Shown one piece after another: positions 835 to 26,657 of a stretch of DNA of 30,144 bases; the first letter of the stretch is position 1, and the number at the start of each line of letters is the position of its first letter. The notes under the pieces are model-generated. The model had not been told where the DNA came from. It saw only the letters and a program-made list of their open reading frames with translations, and made no database searches. Position numbers and translations under genes: made by a program. This stretch comes from a virus. The stretch spans positions 1 through 30,144 of IMG/VR virus record IMGVR_UViG_3300030090_003857. One strand, given 5' to 3'.

Positions 835-868
835 AAGCTGTATATTTGATTTATAATTTTTCATTTTT

Positions 869-894
869 AGGCTGTCTTCGGGCAGCCTTTTTTT
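869..894 (+). terminator. Rho-independent terminator with UUCG tetraloop
   Basis: The stem AGGCTGTC/GGCAGCCT (8 pairs, one G-U) closes an exceptionally stable TTCG loop and is followed by T7. It sits 35 bases after the plus-strand nuclease-like gene. The T-run overlaps the last codon of the convergent minus-strand tail gene. Read from the minus strand there is no T-tract after the hairpin, so it is judged to terminate plus-strand transcription only. Confidence 0.9.
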
Positions 895-18315: not shown

Positions 18316-20501
18316 TATTCCTCTATTTGTTTCAGCTTTCTATCAGACCAATTCAACATTGCATCACCGCCCCAAAGATTATAACTTATTGTACCACATA
18401 CAGGCTTGTCATCTTTTTCATAACTACCTGTATCATATGCCTTTGCACGTGATAGATAACTATAAACTCTTTTTAAAACAGATAAAGAAAATGGCCTATT
18501 TGCAACAATATCTTGTGCTCTCTGTTTTCCAACAGCTGTTGCACATGCATTATTATGCTTATTATTTATTTTAATTGCCCTTTCAGCATTTGCTATTGCT
18601 TTTTTTGGATAACCACCATATGTTTCTTGTTTTTCAGAACCAAGTGCATCTTCAAGTTCATTCATATCTCTACAAGGCATATAAATAGTACCATCTTCTG
18701 TATTATGACTATGAGTGAGTGTACAACCAATTTCTCTTGCTCTATCCATGGCCTCGTCAGGCGTATCGTATACTTCATCTTGTGCCTGTTTAGAATATCT
18801 TCTTTCATCTTCCTCGTCATGATAGGATTTGCCTTTAGAACTTAACGGATGACCTTCAGGAAATAAATCTGTATCATGTTTACCACTTCTAAATTTACCA
18901 TTTTTTAAAGCATAAAGGTAAGAATTTACGCGCGCCATTGCCCATTGCTGTTCGCTTGATACTGTTGGTCTTACTGATTGTGGATTTGTTCTGTATGCAC
19001 CAATACCTCTTTTATATACAGCAAATAAAGTTCTTACGTTGGTTTTCTTTGTCTTGCTTCTTACACTTTCATTATGGTCATCTGCTTTTTTCTTTAATGC
19101 TTTTCTTAATCTTTCATTTATTTCTTGTTTTTCTTCTACTGCACTTTCAAAAAAGTTTTTTTCAGAACCAAGGTCTAAATCAGATATTGGTATAAATGCA
19201 CTTGGTACTAAATAATCGTTCATTATATCTAAATCTTCGTCAAGACCATAACCCATTGCCATTCTTTTTTCGTTGCTTGACAACCAATATGACTGACTAA
19301 GTTGTGCTACAATCTTTTCTTGTTCTTGTTGTAGTTCTGAAATAGAAGAGTAATCAAAATCTAAAAATAAATTTTCGCCATATAGAGGTACCAACCACCT
19401 ATTTAATTCGTCTCTTAATTTATCAAGTTCAGGAATTACACAATTTTGATACAATGCCTTTTTTGCTTCACGCATATTGTTATATGTAGAAGATTCTGTA
19501 TTATTTAATAATTGTACAGGTACACTAAATATGTTACAAAGGTCTTTAATACTTGCGTTATATGTTTCTATTAATTGTAAATCACCTGCACTTAATCCAA
19601 AATTTGTCCATGATAATTTTTTAGGTGTTACAATCACATCTCCTGCATTATGTGACCCTTGGTAATTTCTTCTAAATGCATCTTTTAATTGTTGTGCCTG
19701 TGTTGGTGTAAGTGATTCATCTTCACTTGTTAATATTCCTCTTGCTGTTTGATTTTGTAGATATTTTAGTCCTGTTTCCACAGCTTCGTTATTACTTGTC
19801 ATAGAACGTAAACCACTTAAAAGTGGTGATTGTCCGTATAAATGTGAACCACTTCCATCATAATCAGGATTAAAATCTGCGATATGTAATACATCAGATG
19901 CATCAATGTCGTATTGATTTCTACCATAATTCATACAATATTTTGCCACAGGTTCAAATATGCCATTACTCTTTATATCAACTAAATGACTTGGAAGCGC
20001 ATATAATTCATTAAAGACTTTATTTTCTCTACTTTCAGGACCAATACCATAAATAAATCTATTCCCAGTTAATTTACCAAATGCAATAACTTCTGTCATC
20101 CAAGTTGCATAACTCTGTGCAGGATTGGGTCTGTCTAATAAATCATGTAAAGGTGTATGTTCTGTTTTAATCAACGCATGTTTTTTAATCATATTTGCCT
20201 TTATCAAAGAATCATCATTGACAATACCAGATGTTAATGCCTTGTATTGTTTAAGAGTATCTTCATCCTTTTTTTCGTATATAATATAAGGTACTGCAAC
20301 TGCTGTTTTTGTAATTAGATTTACTATTGAGTAAATCGTTGGGTTTTTTTGATAACCTTTTCTTATATAATTATCATCATTCTCGTTATTAGAAATATTA
20401 CCATTGCCCATGTAAGAATATATTGCTCTATTGTATTCAGGGTTTGTATTCTGCGAAAATGCTTTTATTGCAGATTGTATTCTTTGATAAAATGTAGGCA
20501 T
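18315..20501 (-). CDS. Portal protein with unusual C-terminal extension
   Basis: The 728-aa protein is much longer than typical HK97-type portals (400-480 aa). Residues about 30-460 carry the portal pattern: NPTIYSIVNLITKTAVAVPYIIY, RPNPAQSYATWMTEVIAFGKLTGN, ADVLHIADFNPDYDG, and TYNNMREAKKALYQNCVIPELDKL followed by RWLVPLYG. A linker of Lys/Glu helices follows. From about 490 a module begins YKRGIGAYRT...WAMARVNSYL..DTDLFPEGHP, then a region with LTHSHNTEDGTIYMPC (about 597-620), and a last module (about 640-728) with GKQRAQDIVANRPFSLSVLKRV and YNLWGGDAMLNW. Similar modules are seen as separate or fused domains in other phage head proteins; here they are fused to the portal. Confidence 0.88.
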   Translation of the reverse strand: MPTFYQRIQSAIKAFSQNTNPEYNRAIYSYMGNGNISNNENDDNYIRKGYQKNPTIYSIVNLITKTAVAVPYIIYEKKDEDTLKQYKALTSGIVNDDSLIKANMIKKHALIKTEHTPLHDLLDRPNPAQSYATWMTEVIAFGKLTGNRFIYGIGPESRENKVFNELYALPSHLVDIKSNGIFEPVAKYCMNYGRNQYDIDASDVLHIADFNPDYDGSGSHLYGQSPLLSGLRSMTSNNEAVETGLKYLQNQTARGILTSEDESLTPTQAQQLKDAFRRNYQGSHNAGDVIVTPKKLSWTNFGLSAGDLQLIETYNASIKDLCNIFSVPVQLLNNTESSTYNNMREAKKALYQNCVIPELDKLRDELNRWLVPLYGENLFLDFDYSSISELQQEQEKIVAQLSQSYWLSSNEKRMAMGYGLDEDLDIMNDYLVPSAFIPISDLDLGSEKNFFESAVEEKQEINERLRKALKKKADDHNESVRSKTKKTNVRTLFAVYKRGIGAYRTNPQSVRPTVSSEQQWAMARVNSYLYALKNGKFRSGKHDTDLFPEGHPLSSKGKSYHDEEDERRYSKQAQDEVYDTPDEAMDRAREIGCTLTHSHNTEDGTIYMPCRDMNELEDALGSEKQETYGGYPKKAIANAERAIKINNKHNNACATAVGKQRAQDIVANRPFSLSVLKRVYSYLSRAKAYDTGSYEKDDKPVCGTISYNLWGGDAMLNWSDRKLKQIEE

Positions 20502-22055: not shown

Positions 22056-22913
22056 TTATTTTTTATATGTCTCCTGTATTATACGAGGAACTGTGTTGTT
22101 CCAGTTGATTCTATGGTGTAATCTTGGATGTATTGTACCAACTAATGATACCTTAACGCTAGATGGATTAAATATTAAAGTGTAAAAAGATTTTACGTAT
22201 GTACCACCATCAAGATAAAATTCTGTAAGACCACCAGTATTTTGTTGTGTTTGTAATTGATTCAATCTTAATTCACATATCGTAAGAAATAAATCGCCTT
22301 TTGAACCAAAATGTACATACGTATTTACATCTTCGTTTATTCTACCTATAAATTGAAATCTTCTTTCTGTAGAACACACAAAAAAATTCATTGCTTTTCT
22401 AGATAATTTTTTTTGAAAAACACTACACCCTGCACCACCAATAAAGTCACCATCTTGTGCAATACACAATGTTTTTGCTTTTATAGATTTATAATATTTA
22501 AGAAGTACATTGAATTGAAAATCTAAATCTTTGCATAATCTTTGTTTTGTGAGATAATTATAATTATTATCAACTGTATATCTAAAAGTCTTGTAATCGT
22601 CGTCTAAGACAATAAAATATTTATAACCCAATTCCTTTGCAATATCAAATACTGCGTTTCTAGCATAAACTACGACACGCTTATCATCAAAATTATCAGC
22701 AATGTCAAATGTATTTACATAATCATCTTTAGAAAAGACATAAACATTTTTAAATTGTTTTTTATAGTCATTTAGATTTTTATCATCATCTGAACATATT
22801 AGATATATTTCACCTGTATAACCTTGTTTTATCAGCGTTTGATAAGTGTAAACTTTGTCTGCCCTTCCATATGAAAGAATAAAAACGACATATTCTTTTT
22901 TATTCATATTCAT
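22056..22913 (-). CDS. TAGT-like glycosyltransferase
   Basis: The 285-aa protein resembles the TET-associated glycosyltransferase (TAGT) family described in phage base-modification systems. Seen: an opening beta strand with VVFILSYGRADKVYTYQTL (SYGR at 14-17), then EIYLICSDDD, a VVVYARN motif (81-86), and IVLDDDY (103-107), a DxD-like metal/sugar-nucleotide site. The C-terminal half has VHFGSKGDLFLTICELRL and GGTYVKSFYTLI. Members would glycosylate hydroxymethylated bases in DNA, but no hydroxylase or nucleotide hydroxymethylase is in this window. It overlaps the ParB-like gene by 14 bases (starts at 22913 or 22907), directly upstream of the terminases. Function is inferred from family memory and motifs. 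Confidence 0.7.
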   Translation of the reverse strand: MNMNKKEYVVFILSYGRADKVYTYQTLIKQGYTGEIYLICSDDDKNLNDYKKQFKNVYVFSKDDYVNTFDIADNFDDKRVVVYARNAVFDIAKELGYKYFIVLDDDYKTFRYTVDNNYNYLTKQRLCKDLDFQFNVLLKYYKSIKAKTLCIAQDGDFIGGAGCSVFQKKLSRKAMNFFVCSTERRFQFIGRINEDVNTYVHFGSKGDLFLTICELRLNQLQTQQNTGGLTEFYLDGGTYVKSFYTLIFNPSSVKVSLVGTIHPRLHHRINWNNTVPRIIQETYKK

Positions 22914-23643
22914 CTAAATATTTATCAAGTATTTCATTTCTTAATTGTATGTATCCAAGTTTAATTGCTTTATCAAAATCAATAATTATTAATGCACTTT
23001 CTTCCATTAATTCTTGTATTTCTTTTGATGAATGTGCATAAAAATCTGCAATTTTTGTATAATCAAAAACCATGTGCCTTGTTGCACAATCCATAAGAAA
23101 ATTTTTTTCATTTACCGTCAGATTTGTTTTTTTTATTTTATCTAATAACTGTTTGTATTTATTCTTATCAATTAGTTCTTTAATGTCAGGTTTATTATCA
23201 GATGGTTCATAAATTGGTGCATTGATTTTAGATGTATATGGTATTTCATCTCTATCAAATTCCATTTGTTCATCAATATTGACTGATGGTATTTCTAAAC
23301 CCCAGTTATCTAAACTTTGAGACAACCATTCATTTCCAAGTGAATCCCAATCCCAATCACCAAAAGAAATATTATCCTTAATGATAAATTCTTGTTTTTG
23401 TTCCTCTGTCCAATTTTGTGCAATATCTACTGTAATTTTATCAAATCCAGCCTTTTGTAATGCCTTTAATCTCATATTACCACCAAGAACAACCATATTT
23501 TCGTCAACAACCAAAGGTCTTTTATCCAACATTTCAGGAAAATCAATTATTGATTTTACCAATTTATTAAATTTTTTCTTTGATATAGTTCTTGGGTTTT
23601 GTGTGTTTGGTTTTATATCTTTTATTTTAACTTTTTTTCTCAT
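22900..23643 (-). CDS. ParB-like nuclease-domain protein
   Basis: The 247-aa protein has the ParB/Srx N-terminal fold: KIKDIKPNTQNPRTISKKKFNKL, VVDENMVVLGGNMRLKALQKAG (GGNMR at 54-58 in place of GHRR) and a following helix. Residues about 150-247 form a second helical domain (APIYEPSDNKPDIKELI..., CATRHMVFDYTKIADFYAH, LIIIDFDKAIKLGY) found with phage ParB-like proteins. Such phage proteins are often neighbours of base-modification or terminase genes. Role unknown; possible nicking, CTP/ATP-dependent DNA binding or guiding modification. Overlaps the glycosyltransferase, so the two are probably coupled. Confidence 0.75.
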   Translation of the reverse strand: MRKKVKIKDIKPNTQNPRTISKKKFNKLVKSIIDFPEMLDKRPLVVDENMVVLGGNMRLKALQKAGFDKITVDIAQNWTEEQKQEFIIKDNISFGDWDWDSLGNEWLSQSLDNWGLEIPSVNIDEQMEFDRDEIPYTSKINAPIYEPSDNKPDIKELIDKNKYKQLLDKIKKTNLTVNEKNFLMDCATRHMVFDYTKIADFYAHSSKEIQELMEESALIIIDFDKAIKLGYIQLRNEILDKYLDEYE

Positions 23644-24378: not shown

Positions 24379-25326
24379 TTATTTATATCTACCTGTTTTT
24401 AAATCGTATTGTATGAAACAGCTTCCTAAAGTACCATTTAATCTTTGAGACTTCATTTTAACAGTTTCAAACTCAACAAATTTAATATGTTTTTCCTGAT
24501 TTAAAAGTAAACCCTCAACTAAATCTCTACCCTTAACTCTTTCCTCAACCTCATCGTCTGCGATTCTATGCATCACAACCATGCAGTCTACTTTATTAAA
24601 ATGCATAGTGCCACCAGCCAAAGAAAAAGCAGTTGCCTTTGGAATGACACCTCTGATAGGTGATGGTGTTTTTGGATGTTCTACATATGTCATAATACTG
24701 TCTGTTTTTTTTGCAAATTGTTTTAATATTGTTAATGTAAGTTTTAAATATTGATACATATTACTTTCTCCGGCATTGGATTCTACAACCCAATTCAAAG
24801 GGTCAATAATAAAATTATTATATCCCTTTTTTGTGTACTCTTCAAATTTATCTACCAAAGAATTAATTGTAGGCATCTCGTCATTATTTTCTAAAAAGGC
24901 AAAATGATTACCAATAAAATCTAATGCTGTGTTCATCTCTTGCTCTGTGCATTTATCTGCATAATTAGGATTAACATTTTTCCCAAGATATGCCTGACAA
25001 AGATTTAAAACTAATTCTGCTGTATTTGTTTCTGGTGAATACATCATGACTTTATCTTTGTAATGATATGCCCTTAATATGCTTAAATAATTTAGTATCT
25101 CGGATTTACCACTTTGAGGATAACCACTAAAACAATAAAGAAATCCTTTACGCCATCTAAAATTTTCATCTAATCCTTTTATGTAAGATGTTTCACCCAT
25201 AGGGTATCCCTCTTCATAATATGTAAATAATTTATCTTTTATATCAGATACAAAAACTTCTTTACAGGCATTTTTATTATAATCTTTTTTTAATATATCA
25301 TCAAAATCCTTAACCTTTATGCCCAT
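24379..25326 (-). CDS. DnaB/Twinkle-like replicative helicase
   Basis: The 315-aa protein is a RecA-fold helicase without a primase domain. Walker A is SGYPQSGKS (67-75), catalytic Glu99 in MMYSPET, Walker B FIIDPLNW (172-179, Asp175), then a sensor-like AFSLAGGTMHFNKVD and VVMHR (about 249-253). The C-terminus (KMKSQRLNGTLGSCFIQYDLKTGRYK) resembles the end of T7 gp4/Twinkle-type helicases (..K.R.NG..G.....YD..TGRY). It would unwind phage DNA at the fork. It is on the late-gene strand, coupled by a 17-base overlap to the upstream 101-aa gene. The phage primase and polymerase are not in the window. Confidence 0.85.
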   Translation of the reverse strand: MGIKVKDFDDILKKDYNKNACKEVFVSDIKDKLFTYYEEGYPMGETSYIKGLDENFRWRKGFLYCFSGYPQSGKSEILNYLSILRAYHYKDKVMMYSPETNTAELVLNLCQAYLGKNVNPNYADKCTEQEMNTALDFIGNHFAFLENNDEMPTINSLVDKFEEYTKKGYNNFIIDPLNWVVESNAGESNMYQYLKLTLTILKQFAKKTDSIMTYVEHPKTPSPIRGVIPKATAFSLAGGTMHFNKVDCMVVMHRIADDEVEERVKGRDLVEGLLLNQEKHIKFVEFETVKMKSQRLNGTLGSCFIQYDLKTGRYK

Positions 25327-25615
25327 TTTGTAATTTTATTAATTGTTTTTCTAAATCATCTACTATTTCAAGATATTTTTCTTGCTGTATTACAATACTA
25401 TCTGTGACCTTTTCAACACTTCCGTAAATTGTATTCATGAAAACAATTAAATCAACTAATTGGTTAATAGTTGTTTTTGATAATTTAAAAAAATCTTTAT
25501 CTAATTCTCTTTGATATTTACCTCTATTTTCTACAGCTTCAACCCACTTTTTTGTTATTGCGTGATTTTCATAATCTTCAATAAATGTTTTTAATTTTTC
25601 TTTCGTTAATTCCAT
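25310..25615 (-). CDS. Hypothetical 101-aa helical protein
   Basis: First gene of the leftward operon, beginning 16 bases after the nearest operator dyad. It is helical and charged (MELTKEKLKTFIEDYENHAITKKWVEAVENRG..., ending in a coiled coil EKYLEIVDDLEKQLIKLQNG). Function unknown; because it directly follows the control region and precedes the helicase it may be a helicase loader or early regulator, but nothing in the sequence proves this. Confidence 0.65.
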   Translation of the reverse strand: MELTKEKLKTFIEDYENHAITKKWVEAVENRGKYQRELDKDFFKLSKTTINQLVDLIVFMNTIYGSVEKVTDSIVIQQEKYLEIVDDLEKQLIKLQNGHKG

Positions 25616-25630
25616 TTTTTATTTATTTTA

Positions 25631-25647
25631 TAATTACATAGTAATTA
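25631..25647. promoter_or_regulatory. Operator-like dyad O1
   Basis: TAATTAC-ATA-GTAATTA, perfect 7-bp arms around a 3-base centre. It shares two bases with the next dyad, so the two are spaced by 15 bp. It lies 16-32 bases upstream of the leftward gene start, where a promoter would be. Confidence 0.7.
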
Positions 25648-25662
25648 ATTACATTGTAATTA
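25646..25662. promoter_or_regulatory. Operator-like dyad O2
   Basis: TAATTAC-ATT-GTAATTA, the same arms as O1 with one centre change. It abuts the 28-bp palindrome on its right. Confidence 0.7.
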
Positions 25663-25688
25663 TTATTTTTTATATATAAAAAATAATA
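25661..25688. repeat. Perfect 28-bp palindrome in control region
   Basis: TATTATTTTTTATA is followed at once by its exact reverse complement, with no spacer. It lies between operators O2 and O3. As a zero-loop inverted repeat it could extrude a cruciform, bind a dimeric protein, or hold back-to-back AT-rich promoters around the TATATA centre. Confidence 0.8.
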
Positions 25689-25689
25689 G

Positions 25690-25706
25690 TAATTACATTG
25701 TAATAT
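25690..25706. promoter_or_regulatory. Operator-like dyad O3
   Basis: Core ATTACATTGTAAT (25692-25704) is identical to the core of O2, with slightly weaker outer bases. It lies upstream of the rightward regulator gene, on the other side of the palindrome. Confidence 0.65.
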
Positions 25707-25762
25707 AATCATCATTATAAAAATAAATTTAAAAAATTATTTTAATAATCAAAAATTTTTTA

Positions 25763-25770
25763 TAAATTTG
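25763..25770 (+). promoter_or_regulatory. -7 element TAAATTTG at regulator start
   Basis: Exact TAnnTTTG only four bases upstream of the regulator ATG, so a transcript from it would be leaderless. No clear -33 TTG is visible. Confidence 0.35.
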
Positions 25771-25774
25771 TTTC

Positions 25775-25966
25775 ATGTTAACTAAAGAATTACTAGAGAA
25801 TCGTCTCAAGGAGATGAAACTTGATAAACAAAAATTAGCTAACAAGGTTGATGTTACATTAATGACAATGTATAACAAATTCAACAATCCTGATAGCTTT
25901 AAAATATCAGAATTAAAAAAACTTGCAAAGGCTGGATTTATTAAAAGTTTTATAATTGATTTATGA
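25775..25966 (+). CDS. Cro/Xre-like small HTH regulator
   Basis: The 63-aa protein fits a minimal helix-turn-helix fold: helix 1 (LLENRLKEMKLD), HTH (QKLANKVDVTLMTMYNKFNNPD, about 19-40) and a final helix (SELKKLAKAGF). The pattern is that of the lambda Cro/XRE family, without a dimerisation or protease domain. It is the first rightward gene after three operator-like dyads, so it probably binds them and represses leftward or its own transcription (inference). The ATGA overlap couples it to the next gene. Confidence 0.75.
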   Translation: MLTKELLENRLKEMKLDKQKLANKVDVTLMTMYNKFNNPDSFKISELKKLAKAGFIKSFIIDL

Positions 25967-26154
25967 TGGAAGATGTACAAAAAAGTATAATTAGACAGAG
26001 TTCCATAAAGGCATCAATAGACTTTTGGCGAATCAAATCGGAGCAAGGTAATGAAGATATTACTGTGGATGGCATAATTGATACTGCTAGTGAAATAGCA
26101 TATTACTGTGCTACAGGTAAGAAGTATAACAATAATAATAAACTTTTAAAATAA
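25963..26154 (+). CDS. Hypothetical 63-aa protein, early operon
   Basis: Not firmly recognised. It begins MMEDVQKSIIRQSSIKASIDFW and then DGIIDTASEIAYYCATGKKY; the 'IRQ..IKA....(10-20).A......TGKK' pattern recurs in small phage proteins encoded beside ssDNA-binding genes, and here the next gene is SSB-like. The start overlaps the regulator stop by 4 bases, and a second ATG follows directly. Confidence 0.65.
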   Translation: MMEDVQKSIIRQSSIKASIDFWRIKSEQGNEDITVDGIIDTASEIAYYCATGKKYNNNNKLLK

Positions 26155-26439: not shown

Positions 26440-26496
26440 AAAGTGCCTGATAATAATAGGTTGTTTGGAAGCACCTTATTTGATGGCACTTTTTTT
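26440..26496 (+). terminator. Long-hairpin terminator after SSB-like gene
   Basis: The outer stem AAAGTGCC/GGCACTTT is a perfect 8-pair helix followed by T7. The 37 bases it encloses can form an inner helix from AGGT/ACCT and flanking A/T pairs with a bulge. The element lies 29 bases after the SSB-like stop; it probably ends or attenuates the regulator-SSB transcript, or is a small structured RNA. Confidence 0.7.
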
Positions 26497-26507
26497 ATAT
26501 TTGATAT

Positions 26508-26657
26508 ATGATTGAATTTTCTAAACATGTTATTGGTATTTGTGGAGAACATTGGCACCCTAACATATGGACAATCTTTGGTGCATCGCCATTTATTTTA
26601 TATGCAGTTTATTATTTTAAATATCATATTAAAAAATATTTAAAAAAAATTATATAA
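26508..26657 (+). CDS. Small membrane protein, 49 aa
   Basis: Read from the gap between the SSB-like and ParB-like genes. It starts MIEFSKHVIGICGEHWHPN, then one hydrophobic helix (about 21-38, WTIFGASPFILYAVYYF) and a Lys-rich end. The CGE..HPN-TM pattern is common among tiny phage proteins with unknown role. It starts just after the terminator, so its transcription depends on read-through or a nearby promoter. Confidence 0.6.
   Translation: MIEFSKHVIGICGEHWHPNIWTIFGASPFILYAVYYFKYHIKKYLKKII

Follow-up and report, generated by a model that had tools for sequence, protein, structure and literature searches.

A perfect A/T palindrome upstream of a Cro-like gene: a candidate replication origin of uncultured phages, probably of marine flavobacteria

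The window analysed here is the complete IMG/VR record IMGVR_UViG_3300030090_003857, 30,144 bases in length. Its genes are organised in two operons, which diverge at a 159-bp gap and converge at 834/893, where a GC-hairpin terminator (GGCTGTCTTCGGGCAGCCTTTTTTT) was recognised at 868–892. The contigs of related phages begin at varying positions, the left end of the window is a continuation of the early operons of these relatives, and the ends of one related contig (L048/L065) overlap by 391 bp with 95.9% identity, so that the map behaves as circular with a size of about 31 kb. Judged by its sequence, the contig with overlapping ends is a circularly permuted genome, the ends coming from slightly different strains or from noisy reads. 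The terminase is nearest to those of Bacteroides phages (41% identity), the window helicase is nearest to those of Flavobacterium and Tenacibaculum phages (26–27% identity), and the flavobacterial sigma-A box TAnnTTTG is present upstream of several window genes. We infer that the source is a phage of marine Bacteroidota, probably of flavobacteria. No relative of the HTH protein described below or of the exonuclease was found in 84,980 bacterial and archaeal genomes, and for this reason neither a prophage nor a host could be assigned from them. Beside the terminase genes, a glucosyltransferase-like protein (22056–22913, minus strand; PHROG 842, E 1.5e-63) overlaps a ParB-like/nuclease-like protein (22900–23643, minus strand), and the two may form a DNA-modification pair. 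The features at and around the gap are as follows.

25615 down to 893, minus strand: leftward operon, helicase/late module
24379–25326, minus strand: helicase of 315 aa, DnaB-like/RecA-fold, second leftward gene
25310–25615, minus strand: 101-aa gene, predicted helical/coiled-coil product, overlapping the helicase gene
25631–25647, no strand: dyad O1, TAATTACATAGTAATTA, candidate HTH site with the core TTACATWGTAA
25646–25662, no strand: dyad O2, TAATTACATTGTAATTA, candidate HTH site, overlapping O1 by 2 bp at 15-bp spacing
25661–25688, no strand: perfect spacerless A/T palindrome of 28 bp, with the halves TATTATTTTTTATA and TATAAAAAATAATA, between O2 and O3
25690–25706, no strand: dyad O3, TAATTACATTGTAATAT, candidate HTH site, 44 bp further right
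25763–25770, plus strand: sigma-A −7 box TAAATTTG, predicted transcription start at 25775
25775–25966, plus strand: Cro/C1-type HTH protein of 63 aa, first gene of the rightward early operon
25963–26154, plus strand: second early-operon gene, 63 aa, conserved, no family match
25775 to the record end and on to 834, plus strand: rightward early operon, with the map treated as circular

The first rightward gene had been annotated initially as a Cro-like HTH protein, and profile and fold comparisons bear this out. The 63-aa protein matches Pfam HTH_26 with an E value of 0.0019, just below the curated cut-off of the family, and a PHROG transcriptional repressor with an E value of 3e-4. Its AlphaFold model has a mean pLDDT of 88, with XRE proteins, P22 c2, and C.Esp1396I as fold neighbours. 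On both profile and modelled fold, it is a member of the Cro/C1-type (XRE) HTH proteins. The protein consists of a single domain without a helicase domain, the helicase being encoded by a separate gene.

The positions, overlap, and spacing of the three dyads were confirmed. The gap contains only 8.5% GC, and of 1000 first-order shuffles none yielded three dyads with a common G/C-containing half-site. All three dyads are present and beyond chance; O3 is a weaker dyad than first described, its symmetry being limited to the inner 13 of 17 bp (ATTACATTGTAAT, ATTAC-N3-GTAAT). Exact TTACATNGTAA dyads are confined to the gap and absent from the rest of the 30,144-base record, in which one-mismatch matches are at background (8 observed versus 7.2 expected). 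The palindrome was found to be exact, as first described, and it is the sole perfect stem of at least 10 bp (loop up to 8) in the record. Among 1000 first-order shuffles of the gap, none contained a spacerless 14-bp arm and six contained any stem of at least 14 bp. As RNA, both strands fold better than shuffles; no terminator match was obtained at 25661–25688, and Rfam gave no match.

In Flavobacterium psychrophilum, the TAnnTTTG box is located at −12 to −5, and leaderless mRNAs account for just 5.5% (PMC9723704). Applied to the rightward box, this offset puts the predicted start at the A of the HTH start codon, and the promoter apparently gives a leaderless mRNA. The box is found 3–5 nt before the HTH ATG in most relatives. 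Boxes ending exactly 4 nt before start codons occur in the window as TAGATTTG (5870), TAATTTTG (22040), TAAATTTG (25775), and TATATTTG (26508), which suggests that several phage mRNAs are leaderless. The last of these follows a probable terminator inside the early operon (26440–26496, AAAGTGCC...GGCACTTTTTTT, a GC hairpin with a T-run) and precedes an unlisted ORF that starts at 26508, encodes 49 aa, and includes a hydrophobic stretch, all within 26440–26657.

The locus had been interpreted as a compact divergent switch that sets leftward structural transcription against rightward transcription, a reading from which the promoter map departs. The rightward box lies 57 bp from the end of O3 (25706) and overlaps none of the dyads. 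On the other side, the starts of leftward genes have nine leftward TAnnTTTG boxes within 40 nt, against a mean of 1.8 at random (nine or more in 0 of 2000 trials). Minus-strand boxes that precede leftward genes, most of them structural, by 15–28 nt (5155, 6358, 6765, 10895, 11842, 17451) are likely individual late promoters. Because of this enrichment, the structural genes probably have their own promoters, and the gap is unlikely to be their sole source of transcription. Nor was a partner for a lambda-type decision recognised: the gene on the left encodes a predicted coiled coil rather than a second repressor, with no HTH, no family match, and no meaningful PDB fold match for the 101-aa window protein, and no tyrosine integrase (PF00589) was found in 11 records of 28–32 kb.

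For the 101-aa gene, no conserved sigma-A box was found in the window group; by eye, an A/T-rich TAATAAAATAAT-like stretch recurs beside the leftward gene. Ordinary transcription control is the main alternative, a realistic possibility although not the one that we prefer: the Cro-like HTH protein, bound to O1/O2 (and O3) over a leftward promoter, would delay or activate the 101-aa/helicase operon, with the palindrome as an accessory spacer or insulator. O1/O2 lie at most 48 bp from the leftward start codon, so a leftward promoter near the 101-aa gene would overlap them, and the missing sigma-A box is what would be expected of a promoter needing help. The HTH family is transcriptional, and tandem sites adjoin the leftward gene in several clades. 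A Cro-type mechanism, however, needs no perfect hairpin between its sites; the sites are clear of the rightward promoter, and three contigs described below keep the palindrome without the leftward gene at the gap.

We compared the gap with its counterparts in related phages. Of 50 loci, 49 have their longest perfect stem within the 320 bp that precede the HTH gene, the right edge of the stem lying 84–148 bp before the HTH start codon. Close relatives keep the palindrome arms with a variable centre (TATATATA, TATTAATA, TATAAATA), and the hairpins across relatives range from 9 to 25 bp with different stem sequences, the arm identity between clades going down to 24–40%. The 16 stems compared consist almost entirely of Watson-Crick pairs and contain no G.T pair. 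The loops are of 3–8 nt and often asymmetric, several asymmetric ones being of 5–8 nt. The stems contain 0–4 GC pairs, almost all have a T-rich 5' arm, and the hairpin is not followed by a T-run. Stems as long as the observed one were absent from the shuffles of most clade C gaps and appeared in 0–7% of shuffles for the window and L040 groups; the 9-bp stem of clade B (L044/L045) is within chance. The DNA-folding z-scores of L096 and L097 were set aside, because the L096 stretch holds a weak hairpin and the L097 stretch cuts through its own. What the phage group retains throughout is the ability to form a hairpin, despite the turnover of the stem sequence.

It should be noted that template switching perfects inverted repeats (PMC3820800) and could maintain the palindrome without selection, so that perfection alone is no proof of function; it is the constant presence and the constant place that argue for one. 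If template-switch (quasipalindrome) mutation maintained the A/T inverted repeat as a perfect but functionless by-product, and only the flanking operators mattered, near-perfect complementarity without G.T pairs would be predicted, as is seen. We consider this quite improbable, since it leaves unexplained the constant presence of the stem, its position at 84–148 bp, its status as the longest stem, and its persistence after module rearrangement.

The same comparison led us to reject an intrinsic terminator, since the stems are almost without GC pairs, the 5' arm is T-rich, and no T-run lies downstream. A broader RNA-level role, in which the transcribed hairpin would serve as terminator, attenuator, or leader structure, could draw on the better-than-shuffled folding of both strands and on the asymmetric loops of 5–8 nt. 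In one relative (L088), an exact sigma-A box pointing leftward lies to the right of the hairpin, and in co-directional genomes the hairpin comes after a tail gene. These points are outweighed by the missing T-run on either side, the 0–4 GC pairs, and the T-rich 5' arm, and also by the window group, which has no exact promoter box reading into the hairpin, and by the use of ordinary GC-hairpin and T-run terminators elsewhere in the window (868–892 and 26440–26496), making an RNA-level element unlikely in our view.

The dyads follow a different course. Close relatives, taken as IMG/VR contigs with helicase identity of 92–96%, have in common the gene order of 101-aa gene, gap, HTH gene, and 63-aa gene, and most of them retain the TTACATWGTAA cores with the 15-bp and 44-bp spacing; the L030/L031-type and L039 gaps have one site without symmetry. 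Once HTH identity has fallen to 83% (L040/L041/L048) or below, these dyads are absent and other repeats are found instead, TATTATATATAATA in L044/L045 and TATCTATTAG-type repeats in clade C. The recognition helix reads VTLMTMYNKF in the window group versus VTTMTVYNKF, VTTMTLYNKF, and VTPMT[LI]HNKF in other relatives. Loss of the dyads with retention of the flanking genes, which the initial annotation had named as refuting its reading, is literally the case beyond the close relatives, but the HTH protein has diverged there too. Dyad replacement and helix change in the same genomes resemble co-divergence of a protein and its sites, a tentative pattern drawn from few independent lineages. With core and spacing kept among close relatives and changed together with the recognition helix, the dyads look like binding sites, and their proposed role as HTH operators remains likely, as predicted sites.

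Similar sites flank the stem both left and right in the window group (p ≤ 0.03 for most members), in L097, and in L135–L137 (p ≤ 0.007). The gaps contain hardly anything but A and T, and so most A/T-only repeats beyond the window group are individually non-significant. To the left of its hairpin, L097, which is the same contig as L047, has five tandem TATCTATTAG-type copies repeating every 17 bp, and to the right a single copy. This array, approximately 140–260 bp upstream of the HTH gene, is the best candidate of the group for iteron-like sites.

The arrangement of the gap itself is not constant, which provided the main reason for not accepting a divergent switch. In G006 (31,176 bp; loci L092, L131, L133, L134, and L135), nearly all long ORFs run in one direction. 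A tail gene stops directly before the HTH gap, whereas its window counterpart is the last gene of the leftward operon, at the far junction, and the 101-aa and helicase genes are co-directional about 5 kb downstream of the gap. Here too, the palindrome precedes the HTH gene (18799–18840, a 17-bp stem, the longest in that genome), and none was found upstream of the 101-aa gene at the 101-aa/helicase junction in this one whole genome. L136 and L137 have the same tail-gene/HTH junction, with stems of 15 and 17 bp. Consequently, in three contigs (G006/L135, L136, and L137) a co-directional tail gene takes the place of the leftward operon, the gap is non-divergent, and the palindrome is retained, indicating that the element belongs to the HTH side and that divergent promoters are dispensable. 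In the L135–L137 gaps, the outer arms around the hairpin are inverted repeats (p 0.000–0.007), and they differ in sequence, ACTGA/TCAGT in L135 versus ATGAGA/TCTCAT in L137. The two genome types differ by an inversion of the late/helicase module with respect to the early one, G006 being co-directional and the window and most relatives divergent/convergent.

Among known systems, the window type resembles the lambdoid Cro/CI operator region OR in having a Cro/C1-type HTH protein as first early gene, three similar 17-bp dyads, and divergent genes. Unlike OR, it has no CI-type gene opposite, the leftward neighbour being the predicted coiled-coil protein, and its operators do not cover both promoters, the rightward one being free of dyads. 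With these two defining features failing, a lambda-type switch is not supported; in addition, no tyrosine integrase was found, a perfect hairpin stands between the sites, and the arrangement survives without divergence. C.Esp1396I is among the closest solved folds of the HTH model (TM 0.74), and restriction-modification controller proteins use tandem paired operators; however, sequence identity is about 14%, and no restriction-modification genes were recognised next to the HTH gene. In iteron-type origins and in lambda ori, repeated initiator sites lie beside A/T-rich DNA. The gaps likewise have repeated initiator-type sites beside A/T-rich DNA and near early genes, but most clades have two or three sites per side at 13–17 bp spacing, five tandem 17-bp copies occur in L047/L097, no known initiator is present, and a hairpin is central. 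In herpes simplex OriS, three origin-binding-protein boxes surround an AT-rich spacer (PMC12543377). Here, too, three sites, two and one, flank an A/T palindromic spacer, a likeness of layout only that implies no relatedness; the OriS initiator is of helicase type and its hairpin comes from Box 3/Box 1, whereas here the protein is a 63-aa HTH and the hairpin is the spacer. No described phage system with such a layout was found in a small literature search. The cultured comparators were not usable: in Tenacibaculum phage JQ and Flavobacterium phage tooticki6-1, the helicase relatives are fusions inside co-directional operons, and BC669P3, a terminase relative, is entirely one-directional, none of them having the gap.

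Taken together, we tentatively favour the gap as a cis-acting, HTH-bound palindrome element that operates at the DNA level where the early operon begins, and most likely serves as a replication origin. HTH dimers, an early product of the apparently leaderless sigma-A promoter, would bind the flanking sites and bend or melt the palindrome, or stabilise its extrusion. The resulting single-stranded or cruciform DNA would load the phage DnaB-like helicase. In window-type genomes, the bound HTH protein may also cover the leftward start region of the 101-aa/helicase genes, tuning their transcription. An origin is ranked above a purely transcriptional role because the palindrome is kept without the leftward operon, no other replication initiator was recognised among the genes and proteins scanned, and the phage has its own DnaB-like helicase. 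The gap also combines repeated protein-binding-like sites with A/T-rich, palindromic DNA. The 63-aa HTH protein, however, is far smaller than known phage initiators, and the short clade B stem and the mostly non-significant repeats outside the window group also speak against an origin. The cumulative GC skew minimum of the window falls at the gap, and the skew of G006 is positive throughout; since skew follows the coding strand and transcription in this pair, it was dropped as origin evidence. A more specific and rather doubtful version is that the palindrome is kept by structure alone while the sites and the tiny Cro-like protein co-diversify, giving an OriS-like origin of a tailed phage in which this protein, the first to be made and translated from a leaderless mRNA, would occupy the flanking sites and drive extrusion of the palindrome for helicase loading.

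The co-directional genomes imply that promoter divergence is not the point of the element. The gaps and their HTH proteins would offer a natural series of jointly diverged protein/site pairs. If the palindrome is a DNA-level element tied to the HTH gene, it would be a compact candidate origin or control site, easy to clone, from a group of uncultured marine phages of about 31 kb, whose hosts are probably flavobacteria.
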